The notes below the pieces were generated by a model. The model was not told the origin of the DNA, did no database searches, and saw only the letters and a list, made by a program, of their open reading frames with translations. From Shinella zoogloeoides (GTDB lineage: Bacteria; Pseudomonadota; Alphaproteobacteria; Rhizobiales; Rhizobiaceae): a stretch of 64,000 nucleotides of DNA. How positions within the stretch are numbered: the first letter of the stretch is position 1; each line of letters opens with the position of its first letter. The stretch lies in assembly GCF_030733845.1 (NCBI RefSeq), contig NZ_CP132311.1:186001-250000 (forward strand). Reading direction: 5' to 3'. Below, piece after piece: positions 40,884 through 46,479 of this stretch. The translations under genes and the position numbers were made by a program.

Positions 40884-42053
40884 ATGACGATCCATTCGAC
40901 CCTCCTCAATTCCATGCCCGAAATGGTGGCGATCCGCCGCGACCTGCACGAGCATCCGGAACTTGGCCTCGAGGAAGTCCGGACGTCTGATGTCATCACC
41001 CGTCATCTTGAAAGCTATGGCTACAAGGTCACGCGCGGCCTTGCGAAAACCGGCCTTGTTGCGACGCTGACCAACGGCACCGGCCGCAAGTCGATCGGCA
41101 TCCGCGCCGATATCGATGCGCTGCCCATCCATGAGGAGACCGGCCTTGCCTATGCCAGCAAGACGCCCGGCAAGATGCATGCCTGCGGCCATGACGGCCA
41201 CACGACCATGCTGCTCGGCGCGGCGAAGGCGATTGCCGAGCGGCGCAATTTCGACGGCACCGTGCACCTGATCTTCCAGCCGGCCGAAGAGAATTTCGGC
41301 GGGGCGAAGATCATGGTGGAGGAGGGGCTGTTCGACAGGTTCCCCTGCGATGCCGTTTTCGCGCTCCATAACGAGCCGGGCCTGCCGTTCGGCCAGTTCG
41401 CGCTGCGCGAAGGTCCGATCATGGCGGCGGTCGATGAGGCGCGCATCACCGTCAACGGCGTCGGCGGCCATGGCGCGGAGCCGCAGGAGACCCTGGACCC
41501 CATCGTCTGCGGCGCTTCGATCGTCATGGCGCTACAGACCATCGTCTCGCGCAACATCCACCCGCTCGATCCGACGGTGGTCACGGTCGGCTCGTTCCAT
41601 TCGGGCTCGGCGAGCAACATCATCCCGTCCCGCGCAGAAATCGTCGTCGGCATCCGCTCCTTCGATGCGGCCGTGCGCGACGAATTGGAGCGCCGCATCC
41701 GCCTCATCGCCGAGCGCCAGGCGGAAAGCTACGGCATGAGCGCGAGCGTGAACTACCAGCGCTTCTACGACGCGACGGTCAACCACAAGGCCGAGACGGA
41801 TCTGGTGCGCGACCTTGCCGTCCGCTTTGCCGGCGCGGACAAGGTCGTCGATCTCGCCCGGCCCTTCATGGGCAGCGAGGACTTCGCCTATATGCTGAAG
41901 GAGCGGCCGGGCACCTATTTCTTCCTCGGCGGTAGGAGCGGCGAGAACGACAGGTCGCTGCATCACCCCGCCTACAACTTCAACGACGATCTTCTGCCGG
42001 TCGGCGCCGCCTTCTGGACGGAACTGACGGAACATTATCTCCGCTCGGCCTGA
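40884..42053 (+). CDS. M20-family amidohydrolase (hippurate hydrolase-like)
   Basis: 389 residues from ATG 40884 with an AAAGGGA SD; a GTG at 40866 overlapping the permease stop is an alternative. Metal-binding motifs of M20D enzymes: GIRADIDALPI, MHACGHDGHT, FQPAEENFGGA, GHGAEPQ and the C-terminal MGSEDFAYML. Members remove acyl groups from N-acyl amino acids or hydrolyse amide bonds of hippurate, IAA-amino acid and similar compounds. As the last gene of the importer operon it probably processes the imported molecule, which suggests an N-acylated or conjugated amino acid such as an acyl-arginine. Confidence 0.88.
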   Translation: MTIHSTLLNSMPEMVAIRRDLHEHPELGLEEVRTSDVITRHLESYGYKVTRGLAKTGLVATLTNGTGRKSIGIRADIDALPIHEETGLAYASKTPGKMHACGHDGHTTMLLGAAKAIAERRNFDGTVHLIFQPAEENFGGAKIMVEEGLFDRFPCDAVFALHNEPGLPFGQFALREGPIMAAVDEARITVNGVGGHGAEPQETLDPIVCGASIVMALQTIVSRNIHPLDPTVVTVGSFHSGSASNIIPSRAEIVVGIRSFDAAVRDELERRIRLIAERQAESYGMSASVNYQRFYDATVNHKAETDLVRDLAVRFAGADKVVDLARPFMGSEDFAYMLKERPGTYFFLGGRSGENDRSLHHPAYNFNDDLLPVGAAFWTELTEHYLRSA

Positions 42054-42675
42054 AAAGGGCTGGATAGGGGGAATCATCTGCGCCGGATGGGCGATGAGGG
42101 GCGGGTCGTGACCCGCCTCGCGCGGCTGCTTTCGTCACGATTTCGTCACAATTGAAATCACGCCACAAGACGTTTTGTGACTGTTTTTTTACATGTCACA
42201 CATTCGTGAAACTCTTGAAATCGGCATTCGTTCATATACCGCCACATTTCTTGATATGGCGCGTCGGTGCCGCATTTTTTGCGTGCATTAGCGACTTGGC
42301 TTTTATCAAAAAAATCTAAATTGGTTGGTAAAACAATTATTTAAAGGAACTTTTCTGCAAAACAATAAACCGTCTGCATGGACGGTTCTTGTGCTTCGGA
42401 CCGGTTTTGGTTGCAGCGCAAAATGCCGATTTTCACTGTTCAAAAAACGTTGACAGTTGTTTCCAAAAGCAGACCCTTGCGTCCCACAAATTGAGGGACC
42501 ATCTTTAATTCACGAAAGCGGCACACCCCGCTTCCGGAAGTCAACCGAAGGGAATGACGATGTCGGAACTGTTGAAGCAAAGAGAGCTGTGAGCGCCCCG
42601 CACTGGCCCGCCCCGGCAATCGAGCAAGACCACACCGCCGCTTCCACCCACACATATATGGAAAGAGATACGACC
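42054..42675. other. long AT-rich regulatory region upstream of the tandem small-protein genes
   Basis: 622 bp with clearly lower GC than the flanks (42130-42480). It has direct repeats TTTCGTCAC at 42130-42138 and 42141-42149, a near-palindrome CACAAGACGTTTTGTG at about 42164-42179, an oligo-T run, a hairpin AACCGTC-TGCATG-GACGGTT at 42368-42387 and TTGACA at 42450-42455 as a possible -35. A 12-codon frame at 42554-42592 (ATGACGATG...) has an AAGGGA SD and could be a leader peptide. No larger gene is supported. Confidence 0.5.
42368..42387 (+). terminator. short hairpin in the AT-rich region
   Basis: A perfect 7-bp stem AACCGTC / GACGGTT with loop TGCATG, followed by CTTGTGCTT. It could terminate a short upstream transcript or be part of a leader RNA. 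Confidence 0.35.
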
Positions 42676-42927
42676 ATGACCAAGACCCTCAACACCACTT
42701 TCGCCGCTGCTCTCGTCGCCGCTTCCGTTTTCGGCGCATCCGCCGCTATCGCCGGTGACGACTATTACCAGGGCGTCTCGCCGCAACAGGTCCAGAACCA
42801 CCAGATCGACCGCTTCACCACGCAGAGCATCCGCAACGACAATGGCGCCGTGAAGGCCGCTCCGACGAGCGCTGAAGTCGGTGCCGCCCAGGGCGACTAC
42901 TACCAGGGCGTTTCCAAGCACCAGTAA
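42676..42927 (+). CDS. tandem small exported protein, copy 1 (GDYYQGV family)
   Basis: 83 residues. Signal peptide MTKTLNTTFAAALVAASVFG with cleavage after SAAIA, then a mature peptide of about 57 residues that begins GDDYYQGVSPQQVQNHQIDR and ends GDYYQGVSKHQ. The same GDYYQGV motif therefore brackets the mature protein. This copy differs from copies 2 and 3 by RFTTQSIRNDNG in the middle. SD-like GGAAAGAGAT. There is no cysteine and no membrane segment beyond the signal, so it is probably a soluble periplasmic or secreted peptide. I do not recognise a characterised family; small rhizobial secreted families such as DUF680 are a possible distant comparison. Confidence 0.8.
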   Translation: MTKTLNTTFAAALVAASVFGASAAIAGDDYYQGVSPQQVQNHQIDRFTTQSIRNDNGAVKAAPTSAEVGAAQGDYYQGVSKHQ

Positions 42928-42983
42928 GCTGCCGCACGCCTGAACAACCTCCCAAGACTGACCTCCATTCAAGGATTACGACC

Positions 42984-43229
42984 ATGACCAAGACCCTCAA
43001 CACCACCTTCGCTGCCGCTCTTCTTGCCGCCTCCGTCTTCGGCGCTTCCGCCGCTCTCGCCGGTGACGACTACTACCAGGGCGTCTCGCCGCAGCAGGTC
43101 CAGAACCACCAGATCGACCGCACGACGACGCAGAGCATCGGCAACGGTGCCGTCAAGGCTGCTCCGACGAGCGCCGAAGTCGGCGCTGCACAGGGCGACT
43201 ACTACCAGGGCGTTTCCAAGCACCAGTAA
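42984..43229 (+). CDS. tandem small exported protein, copy 2
   Basis: 81 residues. Identical to copy 3 except Leu/Val at residue 14 of the signal peptide. The mature sequence is GDDYYQGV...TTTQSIGNGAVKAAPTSAEV...GDYYQGVSKHQ. It is preceded by a 5' leader almost identical in copies 2-4 (ACTGACTNNCATTCAAGGATTACGACC) with an AAGGATTACG SD, so each gene has its own ribosome site. It lies 56 nt after copy 1. Confidence 0.82.
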   Translation: MTKTLNTTFAAALLAASVFGASAALAGDDYYQGVSPQQVQNHQIDRTTTQSIGNGAVKAAPTSAEVGAAQGDYYQGVSKHQ

Positions 43230-43285
43230 GCCGCCGCCACGCCTGAACAACCTCCAAGACTGACCTCCATTCAAGGATTACGACC

Positions 43286-43531
43286 ATGACCAAGACCCTC
43301 AACACCACCTTCGCCGCCGCTCTCGTTGCCGCCTCCGTCTTCGGCGCTTCCGCCGCTCTCGCCGGTGACGACTACTACCAGGGCGTCTCGCCGCAGCAGG
43401 TCCAGAACCACCAGATCGACCGCACGACGACGCAGAGCATCGGCAACGGTGCCGTCAAGGCCGCTCCGACGAGCGCCGAAGTCGGCGCCGCGCAGGGCGA
43501 CTACTACCAGGGCGTTTCCAAGCACCAGTAA
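43286..43531 (+). CDS. tandem small exported protein, copy 3
   Basis: 81 residues with the same mature peptide as copy 2 and nearly the same DNA over about 302 bp including the leader, which indicates a recent tandem duplication or gene conversion. It keeps both GDYYQGV-type ends and the central TQSIGNGAV stretch. It is 56 nt downstream of copy 2. Confidence 0.82.
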   Translation: MTKTLNTTFAAALVAASVFGASAALAGDDYYQGVSPQQVQNHQIDRTTTQSIGNGAVKAAPTSAEVGAAQGDYYQGVSKHQ

Positions 43532-43588
43532 GCTGTGGCTACGCCTGAACAACCTCCCAAGACTGACTAGCATTCAAGGATTACGACC

Positions 43589-43843
43589 ATGACCAAGACC
43601 CTCAACACCACCTTCGCCGCCGCTCTCGTTGCTGCGTCCGTCTTCGGCGGTTCGGCCGCTCTCGCCGCCGGCAAGGGCGACTACTATCCGGGCGTTGCCA
43701 ACGAACAGGCCCAGAGCCAGTCCGTCGACACGATCCGCACGCACAGCATCGGCAACCGCGTCGTCATCGCCAATGAAACGGCGTCCAATGTCGGCCCGGC
43801 CAACGGCGACTACTACCAGGGCGTCAACCGCGACGCCCGCTAA
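43589..43843 (+). CDS. tandem small exported protein, copy 4 (diverged)
   Basis: 84 residues. The signal peptide is conserved (MTKTLNTTFAAALVAASVFG), but the mature part has diverged: GKGDYYPGVANEQAQSQSVD, TIRTHSIGNRVVIANETASN and a C-terminal GDYYQGVNRDAR. The retained positions (GDYY-GV at both ends, D..T.SIGN..V in the middle) show what is probably under selection in the family. It is the last gene of the array, followed by a strong hairpin. Confidence 0.82.
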   Translation: MTKTLNTTFAAALVAASVFGGSAALAAGKGDYYPGVANEQAQSQSVDTIRTHSIGNRVVIANETASNVGPANGDYYQGVNRDAR

Positions 43844-43870
43844 CAGGCGGCGCCACTGCGGCATGTCCTC

Positions 43871-43900
43871 GAAGCCCCCGGTGGAAGCACCGGGGGCTTC
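43871..43900 (+). terminator. terminator of the small-protein array
   Basis: A perfect 13-bp stem GAAGCCCCCGGTG / CACCGGGGGCTTC with a GAAG loop, 27 nt after the last stop. No T-tract follows, but the stem is very stable. Confidence 0.75.
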
Positions 43901-44066
43901 GCTCGTTGTGGCGAGCCATAGCGGGACGCGAAATGCCGCACGCGGGCGATTGTCGCGGTGCGGCAACGTGGGCGGGCGGGCGGAATTGACCTTTGCCTAT
44001 TCCGGACCACATTCTTCGTCGCGGCCACGGGGCAAAATCCGCGGCGCTTCAGAAAGGATGTGGCCA

Positions 44067-45485
44067 ATGTTCGAACAGTTGGACGCAACGCTGCTCGCCC
44101 GGTTCCAGTTCGCCTTCACGGTCTCCTTCCACATCGTCTTCCCGGCCTTCTCGATCGGCCTTGCGAGCTACCTCGCCGTCTTGGAAGGGCTGTGGCTCTG
44201 GACCAAGGACGAGGTCTACTTCGCCCTCTTCAATTTCTGGAAGACGATCTTCGCGCTCGCCTTCGGCATGGGCGTCGTCTCGGGCATCGTCATGTCCTAC
44301 CAGTTCGGCACGAACTGGAGCGTGTTCTCCGACAAGGCCGGGCCGGTCATCGGGCCGCTGATGGGCTACGAGGTGCTGACCGCTTTCTTCCTCGAAGCGG
44401 GCTTCCTCGGCGTCATGCTGTTCGGCCTCAACCGCGTCGGCCCGAAGCTGCATTTCTTCGCCACCCTCATGGTCGCCGTCGGCACCCTGATCTCGGCCAC
44501 CTGGATCCTTGCCGCCAATTCCTGGATGCAGACGCCCGCCGGCTTTTCCGTCAACGAGGCGGGCCAGTTCGTGCCCACTGACTGGTGGGCGGTGATCTTC
44601 AATCCCTCCTTTCCCTACCGGCTCGTGCACATGGTGCTTGCCGCCTACCTGACGACCGCCCTCGTCGTCGGTGCTGTCGGCGCCTATCACCTCTTGCGCG
44701 GCGATGCGCCGAAGCGCGCGAGGAAGATGTTCTCCATGGCCATGTGGATGGCGGCCATCGTCGCGCCGATCCAGATTTTCGTGGGCGATCTGCACGGCCT
44801 CAACACGCTGGAGCACCAGCCGGTCAAGGTCATGGCGATGGAGGGGCATTATGAGAGCCATCCGGACGGCGCGCCGCTCATCCTCTTCGGCATTCCGAAC
44901 GCGGCCGAGCAGCGTATCGACTACGCCATCGAGATTCCGAAACTGTCGAGCCTCATCCTGAAGCACGATCTCAACGCCCCGCTCGCCGGCCTCGACACGG
45001 TGCCGAGGGAATTGCAGCCGCCGGTCGCCGTCGTCTTCTGGTCCTTTCGCATCATGGTCGCCATCGGGTTCGCCATGCTCGGCCTCGGGCTCTGGTCGCT
45101 GTGGTGTCGCTGGCGCGGCACGCTCGGCCAGAACCGCTGGCTGCACCGCGCCTCGATCCTGATGGGCCCTGCCGGTTTTATCGCCGTGCTGGCCGGCTGG
45201 GTGACGACGGAGGTCGGCCGCCAGCCCTATACGGTCTACGGCCACCTCTTGACGGCAAATTCCGTCGCCCCGATCGATGCGCCGGCCGTCGCGACCTCGC
45301 TGATCGCCTTCATCGTCGTCTATTTCCTCGTCTTCGGCGCCGGTACCTTCTACATCCTGCGCCTGATGGGTCGGCTGCCGCGTGATCCGATGCCCGATCT
45401 TGCCGAAGGCCCGATCCGCTCGGCCGGCATCACGCCTGCCGCCGCCGTCGCCACCAAATCCGGGAGCCACCACCATGGTGCTTGA
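44067..45485 (+). CDS. cydA: cytochrome bd-type (CIO) ubiquinol oxidase subunit I
   Basis: 472 residues from the ATG preceded by AGAAAGGA; an in-frame ATG at 44058 adds three residues. Haem ligands are recognisable: His22 in FTVSFHIVFPAFSIG, His in RLVHMVLAAYLTT and Met in KVMAMEGHYES. The quinol-binding loop after that Met is short, as in the cyanide-insensitive CioA branch. About nine membrane segments. With CydB it reduces O2 to water using quinol under low oxygen or respiratory stress. It overlaps cydB by 11 nt. Confidence 0.95.
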   Translation: MFEQLDATLLARFQFAFTVSFHIVFPAFSIGLASYLAVLEGLWLWTKDEVYFALFNFWKTIFALAFGMGVVSGIVMSYQFGTNWSVFSDKAGPVIGPLMGYEVLTAFFLEAGFLGVMLFGLNRVGPKLHFFATLMVAVGTLISATWILAANSWMQTPAGFSVNEAGQFVPTDWWAVIFNPSFPYRLVHMVLAAYLTTALVVGAVGAYHLLRGDAPKRARKMFSMAMWMAAIVAPIQIFVGDLHGLNTLEHQPVKVMAMEGHYESHPDGAPLILFGIPNAAEQRIDYAIEIPKLSSLILKHDLNAPLAGLDTVPRELQPPVAVVFWSFRIMVAIGFAMLGLGLWSLWCRWRGTLGQNRWLHRASILMGPAGFIAVLAGWVTTEVGRQPYTVYGHLLTANSVAPIDAPAVATSLIAFIVVYFLVFGAGTFYILRLMGRLPRDPMPDLAEGPIRSAGITPAAAVATKSGSHHHGA

Positions 45486-46479
45486 CCTTCCCTTCATCTG
45501 GGCGGCGATCATCGCCTTCGCCGTGCTCGCCTATGTCATCCTCGACGGCTTCGATCTCGGCGTCGGCATTCTCTTCCCCTTCTTCAAGGAAAAGCACGAC
45601 CGCGACGTGATGATGAATTCCGTCGCCCCCGTCTGGGACGGCAACGAGACCTGGCTGGTGCTGGGCGGCGGCGGGCTGATGGCGGTCTTCCCGCTCGCCT
45701 ATGCGACCGTCCTGCCGGCGCTCTACATGCCGCTCGTGCTGATGCTGCTCGGCCTCATCTTCCGCGGCGTGGCCTTCGAATACCGCTGGCGCACGCGGCG
45801 CGGCGAGTTCCTCTGGGATATCGCCTTTGCCGGCGGCTCGATGGTCGCGGCCTTCACCCAGGGCGTGGCGCTCGGCGCGCTTGTACAGGGAATCCCGGTC
45901 GAAAACCGCGCCTATGCCGGCGGCTGGTGGGATTGGCTGACGCCGTTCTCCATCGCGACGGGCCTTGCGCTTCTCATCGGCTATGCTCTGCTCGGCGCCA
46001 CCTGGCTAGTGATGAAGACGAGCGGGCCGCTTGCCGAGCGCGCCCGCGGCTACGCGCTGAAGGCCGGCATCGGCACGCTTGTCGCCATGGGTGTCTTCAG
46101 CCTGTGGACGCCCTTCCTCGAGCCGCTCTATTTCGAGCGCTGGTTCGGCTGGCCGACCGTCGCCTTCTCCCTGCTCGTGCCGCTGCTCGTGCTCGGCTGC
46201 TTCGCGCTTCTCGTCCACGGCCTGCGCACGCAGCACGATTCGCGGCCCTTCCTCGCCGCGCTCGGCCTCTTCGTGCTCGGCTTCGCCGGCATCGGCATCA
46301 GCTTCTATCCCTATATCGTGCCCGCCTCGCTGACGATCTGGCAGGCCGCTGCCCCGGAGGAAAGCCTCGCCTTCCTCCTGGTCGGGGCCGTGGTGCTGGT
46401 GCCGATGATCCTCGGCTACACCGCCTATGCCTATTGGGTCTTCCGCGGCAAGGTCGATCCGGAAGAGGGCTATCATTGA
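45475..46479 (+). CDS. cydB: cytochrome bd-type (CIO) ubiquinol oxidase subunit II
   Basis: 334 residues. Start ATG 45475 inside the cydA C-terminal codons, with a CGGGAG SD. Signature stretches are LDGFDLGVGILFPF, SVAPVWDGNETWLVLGGGGLMAVFPLAYA, IFRGVAFEYR and the C-terminal PYIVPASLTIWQAAAPEESLAFLLVG. Eight or so membrane segments. It carries the second half of the quinol oxidase dimer. Its stop overlaps the ATG of the small subunit gene by one base (TGATG). Confidence 0.95.
   Translation: MVLDLPFIWAAIIAFAVLAYVILDGFDLGVGILFPFFKEKHDRDVMMNSVAPVWDGNETWLVLGGGGLMAVFPLAYATVLPALYMPLVLMLLGLIFRGVAFEYRWRTRRGEFLWDIAFAGGSMVAAFTQGVALGALVQGIPVENRAYAGGWWDWLTPFSIATGLALLIGYALLGATWLVMKTSGPLAERARGYALKAGIGTLVAMGVFSLWTPFLEPLYFERWFGWPTVAFSLLVPLLVLGCFALLVHGLRTQHDSRPFLAALGLFVLGFAGIGISFYPYIVPASLTIWQAAAPEESLAFLLVGAVVLVPMILGYTAYAYWVFRGKVDPEEGYH

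Follow-up and report, generated by a model that had tools for sequence, protein, structure and literature searches.

Hydrophilins are defined by a glycine content over 6% and a hydrophilicity index over 1; water stress induces them, and in vitro they act as protectants. Chaplins and curli-type functional amyloids comprise several paralogous small secreted proteins with short repeated motifs. DUF680 (PF05079), in turn, groups small exported proteins that often occur in several copies per locus and have the centre VDxSxTxS[IV]. The GDYY-type family described here, four tandem members of which are found in a window of 64,000 nucleotides from Shinella zoogloeoides (the whole stretch of DNA that was analysed), resembles each of these systems in part. 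Like hydrophilins, its members are glycine-rich, hydrophilic and probably disordered, and the GDYY-type proteins are free of cysteine; however, in this comparison, which concerns composition alone, only 26 of 85 GDYY-type sequences exceed both numeric thresholds. Like chaplins and curli-type amyloids, the family consists of several small secreted paralogs with short repeated motifs, but it is hydrophilic, matches no such family in Pfam, NCBIfam or the PDB and has no assembly genes seen beside its arrays. It shares with DUF680 the small size, the exported character, the frequent multiplicity at one locus and the type of centre, whereas its GDYYxG ends and a 55-bp upstream block lie outside the DUF680 definition. 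A literature search retrieved no paper on these genes, none containing the motif strings of the family and none linking hydrophilins to rhizobia and the periplasm, and the DUF680 papers concern, by their titles and the beginnings of their abstracts, other genes. Sinorhizobium meliloti genes in the candidate range SMc00588-SMc00592 are named in the accessible parts of PMC2848241 and PMC3687685; those parts, like the corresponding ones of PMC3616915 and PMC6180224, contain no mention of the genes studied here that we could find.

A tandem array of four genes

The array occupies window positions 42676-43843 on the plus strand and encodes proteins of 83, 81, 81 and 84 residues. Copy 1 (42676..42927) starts with a signal peptide that, read by eye, spans residues 1-26 and leaves a mature part of 57 residues; copies 2 (42984..43229) and 3 (43286..43531) have mature parts of 55 residues each, and copy 4 (43589..43843), with a mature part of 58 residues, represents a separate 'last copy' subtype. 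For copy 1, position 42676 is the likelier start, because an in-frame ATG at 42658 overlaps its Shine-Dalgarno (SD) sequence. The starts are 308, 302 and 303 bp apart, with gaps of 56, 56 and 57 bp, and Tandem Repeats Finder reports a single array at 42669-43667 (period 302, 3.3 copies, 92% matches). An SD-like purine stretch precedes every copy (GGAAAGAG at copy 1, AAGGATTACGACC-ATG at copies 2-4), and the signal peptide, as judged by eye, is near-identical in all four. An initial sequence-only reading had described four ORFs of 81-84 codons with a common signal peptide and individual SD sequences, spaced by 302-308 bp, and the ORFs, their spacing and the repeat analysis bear it out. The end motifs also appear in the translations as it had given them: copies 1-3 carry GDDYYQGV right after the AxA site and end in GDYYQGVSKHQ, and copy 4 keeps GDYY-GV at both ends, as GDYYPGV and GDYYQGV. 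Its version of the conserved centre, D..T.SIGN..V, stands in the more precise form D-x3-T-x-S-I, but 'SIGN' does not, since copy 1 reads SIRNDNGAV at this point.

The three intergenic stretches (42928-42983, 43230-43285 and 43532-43588, within 42928..43588 on the plus strand) measure 56-57 bp, and an SD sequence closes each of them. They are 86-95% identical, despite a dS of 0.44 between copies 1 and 2, and may be under a constraint of their own. The 5.18-Mb window genome contains a fifth, distant family copy (G000:C2:1317426; 53% identity). This gene (L005, 1501-1779) adjoins an ORF at about 1956-2390, which we take to resemble an IS200/IS605-type transposase.

Purifying selection between the copies, as expected in the sequence-only reading, is evident among copies 1-3, which show dN/dS ratios of 0.06-0.08 at dS values of up to 0.44. 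Between copies 1 and 2, there are 19.5 synonymous and 5.5 nonsynonymous changes (dN/dS 0.07); the corresponding figures are 15.5 and 4.5 for copies 1 and 3 (0.08), and 5 and 1 for copies 2 and 3 (0.06). When four cross-species pairs of orthologue-like genes are pooled, the ratio is 0.25, with 0.11 for the signal peptide and 0.35 for the mature part. For the mature part alone, it rises to 0.83 between copies 3 and 4 and to 0.79 between the S. lacus and S. yambaruensis first copies, pointing to fast evolution of the linkers between the motifs. Codon usage is strongly biased. Measured against five Shinella translation genes (L230), a small reference set whose rplJ scores only 0.57, the codon adaptation index (CAI) of copies 2, 3 and 4 is 0.79, 0.82 and 0.75, compared with a maximum of 0.74 among the 42 other likely window genes of at least 120 residues, and copy 1, at 0.68, exceeds 39 of these 42. 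Random synonymous recoding with the codon usage of the window reached the observed CAI in 80, 1, 0 and 1 of 2000 cases for copies 1-4, respectively. Purifying selection, the existence of homologs and codon bias together place the array beyond chance, and the four tandem ORFs are real genes. Small proteins with such codon bias and variable copy number are easily overlooked by annotation.

Near-neutral tandem duplication with gene conversion, leaving the products with little function, would be compatible with the patchy occurrence of the family, its absence from 5 of 21 Shinella genomes and the dN/dS values of 0.6-0.8 in some mature parts. Nevertheless, the strong constraint among copies 1-3 at appreciable synonymous divergence, the codon bias and the conservation of the upstream block between genera all speak against this scenario, which we regard as quite improbable.

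The upstream block and the probable array transcript

Upstream of copy 1 lies a conserved, putative promoter/leader block of 55 bp (42450..42504, plus strand; TTGAC...CTTSC...GAGGGACCATCT). An alignment of seven upstream regions from Shinella shows 13-15 invariant sites per 20 window positions across 42430-42509, a level above that of the flanks until the start codons are reached, and a sequence like the block also precedes the S. meliloti gene. A regular expression identified 21 distinct instances, each exactly 55 nt long, in the DNA examined. A script located a family ORF downstream of 20 of them; at the last (L062), it chose the wrong ATG, and the annotated family gene begins 196 nt downstream. 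As the DNA behind this complete association was mostly chosen for holding family genes, the count is biased, and the fair test is a scan of 394 Rhizobiaceae genomes. There, a looser pattern (up to three mismatches) matched 25 sites in 24 genomes, and its reversed control matched nowhere. This pattern was derived from the 21 instances; seven matches in genus g96, with three mismatches each, lie outside them, one g96-like block sequence having been seen before the pattern was written. The script placed a family ORF downstream of 23 of the 25 matches. G013 makes 24, with a profile-found member of divergent centre that begins 225 nt past the block, and the remaining match, in G002, has no family ORF downstream and is probably due to chance. 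The block is present in seven of seven sampled g70 genomes and in seven of seven sampled g96 genomes; no match was found in the four g72 genomes with GDYY arrays (G091, G183, G300, G382), out of 24 GDYY genomes. Its single occurrence in the window genome, with up to three mismatches allowed, makes the block look locus-bound rather than like a regulon motif.

This one block probably drives the whole array, which is probably transcribed as a single unit. Candidate readings of its sequence are TTGAC combined with a weak -10 element or an RpoH-like CTTSC...CCATMT arrangement. A simple scan of the block returned no sigma-70-type site, and the -10 element of S. meliloti sigma-70 promoters is poorly conserved, according to the accessible part of PMC3616915. 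When the leader was folded as a consensus RNA, the covariation term was only -0.07, and a comparison with known RNA elements gave a single Rfam match, far below its cut-off. A terminator-like hairpin upstream of the block (42368..42387, plus strand) probably ends the transcript of the preceding M20 gene, and a GC-rich 14-bp hairpin after copy 4 (43870..43901, plus strand; -31.5 kcal/mol, z -6.5, no T run) probably constitutes the 3' end of the array transcript.

Distribution, turnover and YGD-type arrays

A query with a single copy matched 15 of 61 genomes, one of them (G012) through a weak match (E 0.007) to an array of another type, termed YGD here. At E values of up to 0.001, a profile of the family (A1) had matches in 32 of the 394 Rhizobiaceae genomes, belonging to 11 of 109 genera. 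Clear GDYY-type members (E below 1e-10), often arranged in arrays, occur in 24 genomes from five genera (g1, g4, g70, g72 and g96), in line with the expected homologs in the Rhizobiales; the eight weak matches (E 6e-5 to 8e-4), which include YGD-type/DUF680 proteins and matches mainly to the signal peptide, were not counted. At the order level, 18 of 397 genomes matched the profile, with only weak and likewise uncounted matches outside the Rhizobiaceae, mostly in the signal-peptide part. Copy numbers per genome from both of these profile searches and from the YGD profile search described below are lower bounds, with at least 13 matches, spread over several arrays, in G382. Within Shinella, 13 of 21 genomes have GDYY-type genes, and their main locus holds 1-5 copies in a contiguous run. 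All six relatives from named genomes are Shinella, and a search of the window's own genus recovers the same proteins, in keeping with the assignment of the window to Shinella. On the record searched, S. meliloti Ak57 has three members, one gene on its own and a pair elsewhere. Since the Ak57 protein P0005 is identical to a protein of G380, g70 corresponds to Sinorhizobium; g72, by matching coordinates, looks like Neorhizobium.

The copies within an array have different histories. A protein tree was built from 29 sequences of ten Shinella loci; its bootstrap values are not fully settled. In it, copy 4 of the window and the last copy of G011 group apart from the other copies of both arrays. G002 and G005 have last copies that cluster with each other (98/99), as do those of S. 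lacus, S. yambaruensis, S. granuli and SUS2 (100/100); the last copy of H4-D48 remains with its own array. This grouping suggests that arrays often end in a gene of a distinct, older subtype and that the interior copies turn over.

In the window, the array is preceded by a gene for an M20-family peptidase/amidohydrolase (40884..42053, plus strand) and followed by the genes for cytochrome bd oxidase subunits I and II (cydAB; 44067..46479, plus strand), with the gene names confirmed for the window only. Among the named Shinella loci, cydAB lies downstream in six of six and the M20 gene upstream in five, S. yambaruensis differing. Across genera, the arrays inspected have no constant neighbor, and the family genes of Sinorhizobium and g72 sit among unrelated genes. 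Two g72 arrays (L119, L123) are located near ORFs that by eye resemble AMP nucleosidase and DUF2147. Two of the replicons involved, CP090106.1 (L062; called pSymB, 3.72 Mb), which carries tuf, and NZ_CP069303.1 (L230; called a plasmid, 4.6 Mb), which carries tuf, ribosomal genes and rpoBC, look by this gene content like chromosomes filed as plasmids. Plasmid or phage cargo was set aside as a reading: neither P0003 nor a YGD protein was matched in plasmids, and P0005, the one protein compared with phages, was unmatched there. So was a role as a defence gene; in a search for anti-phage defence systems (PADLOC), P0003 and P0005 had no match and P0004 matched only DpdF, at E 0.016.

Eight of the 21 Shinella genomes are without a GDYY gene. 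Three of these (G012, G014, G015) encode, between this M20 gene and cydAB and preceded by the shared block, five small exported-type proteins each, with the motif order ENPNxG - VDxSxTASI - RYGDGAPYAGR. In G003, G019 and G020, cydA follows soon after the M20 gene with no array, and G006 and G016 (L105, L118) have neither an array nor cydAB between the M20 gene and the chorismate mutase/galE genes, so that five genomes are devoid of any array at this site; weak, partial matches to the YGD profile occur at other places in G006 and G019. These configurations bear on the idea that the array products are accessory to the neighboring oxidase. The presence of cydAB downstream of all six named Shinella loci and of the three YGD-type loci, and the joint lack of array and cydAB in G006 and G016, would fit such a role, but the retention of cydA without an array in three genomes and the unrelated gene neighborhoods in Sinorhizobium and g72 make it extremely unlikely.

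The YGD profile, at E values of up to 1e-4, matched 55 of the 394 Rhizobiaceae genomes in 19 of 109 genera, DUF680-like proteins included, with some of the weakest matches spanning the signal peptide only. Among these 55 genomes, the block was found only in G012, G014, G015 and G135, in addition to the GDYY genomes. In the YGD arrays (L115-L117), the first and last copies are distinct and conserved in all three genomes, and a hairpin-like, GC-rich repeat (CCGACCGG...CCGGTCGG) lies in gaps between copies. With signal peptides left out of the profiles, the two types match reciprocally, with 14 of 16 YGD-type and 49 of 85 GDYY-type sequences above the 99% point of shuffles. The strict centre occurs in 14 of 16 YGD-type/DUF680 and 64 of 85 GDYY-type sequences, compared with 0.01-0.03% of shuffles, and the start contexts are similar (AAGGATTACGACC-ATG and AAAGGTTAAGACC-ATG). 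From sequence comparison, it is likely that both types belong to one superfamily; one array may also have been replaced by another behind a retained block. With DUF680, three of four YGD proteins reach 16-22.5 bits, below the gathering cut-off of 24 bits, and one of ten GDYY proteins scores 26.6 bits, above it. Among the GDYY-type members scanned, 1 of 22 matched DUF680, and the window copies did not, copies 1 and 4 being scanned singly and copies 1-4 within profile A1; the window copies tested reached the cut-off of no Pfam or NCBIfam family, and their sole PDB match, a chain with E 0.14, covered the signal-peptide part. The GDYY type is probably an unregistered branch of what we term here the DUF680-like superfamily.

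Protein character and possible function

In a set of 85 distinct GDYY-type mature parts, 82 contain a YYx[GS]-type motif towards the N-terminus and 77 a G[DEN][YF][YFR] motif towards the C-terminus, counts that lean upward because the set was gathered partly via aromatic motifs. The strict centre [VIL]D-x3-T-x-S-[IV] is found in 64, compared with 0.01% of shuffles. The part shared most widely is the centre D-x3-T-x-S-I/V. The earlier suggestion that both the ends and the centre matter is supported as regards a conserved centre, whereas the exact GDYYQGV ends are not general: one Shinella protein group terminates in GDYR, and the YGD type does without GDYY. Mature GDYY-type parts are hydrophilic (mean GRAVY -0.87), with 14% glycine and 7.7% tyrosine. 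Cysteine is absent from all 85 GDYY-type and all 16 YGD-type sequences, arguing against a lipoprotein or a Cys-bearing peptide precursor. AlphaFold2, run on 17 sequences, gave a mean pLDDT of 51 and a pTM of 0.18, the one helix formed lying in the signal peptide. The proteins are probably exported, judging from a signal peptide read by eye, and probably disordered thereafter, judging from the low AlphaFold2 confidence.

Several functions can be weighed against these properties. The similar motifs at the two ends, the signal peptide and the tandem copies could indicate a precursor whose ends are both released as short signals or ligands. We nonetheless consider a peptide precursor improbable, given that no part is as widely shared as the centre, that the end motifs shift to GDYR and YGD, and that no constant processing or receptor gene lies beside the arrays inspected. 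Tails such as GDYYDGANRPN presumably resemble plant PSY-type peptide hormones and their bacterial mimics; this resemblance was set aside, because the spacing differs and such tails are absent from the window copies. Alternatively, the proteins could be building blocks of a secreted or surface-attached matrix or coat, in which YYxG and T-x-S-I act as stickers, through beta-type assembly or tyrosine cross-linking, and the linkers as spacers. Short conserved motifs between variable polar linkers, the tyrosine content, disorder, codon bias and the presence of several paralogs would suit this function; however, the proteins are hydrophilic, the ORFs inspected beside the arrays (not an exhaustive set) include no export- or assembly-like gene, and no known amyloid family was matched in Pfam or PDB, which leaves a matrix role possible but rather unlikely.

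We tentatively favor, at somewhat less than even chance, an abundant, disordered and dosage-dependent envelope protein with a protective, hydrophilin-like role. A small, strongly expressed Sec-exported protein, unstructured once exported, would act stoichiometrically and in bulk, at the cell surface or within the periplasm. Its variable polar linkers connect three short motifs, namely the central D-x3-T-x-S-I/V and one aromatic-Gly motif close to either end, and these motifs would probably make weak, many-point contacts that, as a guess, protect or coat envelope components under stress in the manner of hydrophilins. The array would set the dose, with interior copies multiplying and being lost. 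The earlier idea that tandem amplification reflects selection on dosage agrees with the 1-5 GDYY copies per Shinella array and their high codon bias. Codon bias, small size, probable disorder, variable dosage, dispensability and the lack of a constant neighbor suit a bulk envelope protein better than part of an enzyme or a signal. We counted in favor of this bulk role the codon bias of copies 2-4, the low dN/dS, the low AlphaFold2 confidence, the hydrophilic, cysteine-free composition, the locus-bound block, the variable copy number and the changing neighbors across genera, and against it the weaker codon bias of copy 1 (80 of 2000 recodings), the nearly unconstrained mature parts of copies 3 and 4, the Shinella genomes without an array and the minority of GDYY-type sequences with both hydrophilin properties. 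Among the YGD type, 5 of 16 sequences combine these properties, and the three types of mature part in the window have hydrophilicity indices of 0.93, 1.03 and 0.80 at 10.5-12.7% glycine, so that one of them exceeds both thresholds.

Collectively, GDYY arrays, YGD arrays, DUF680 and the shared rigid block turn scattered hypothetical proteins into one testable system, for which Shinella and Sinorhizobium meliloti are workable laboratory organisms. It is tempting to speculate, although we think it unlikely, that rhizobia share an unrecognized class of mass-produced, disordered, tyrosine-rich envelope proteins with three motifs, which would form or protect surface material and whose arrays would be tuned in dosage, exchangeable or remodeled in their coding type (GDYY versus YGD) and controlled through one block by a dedicated regulator.
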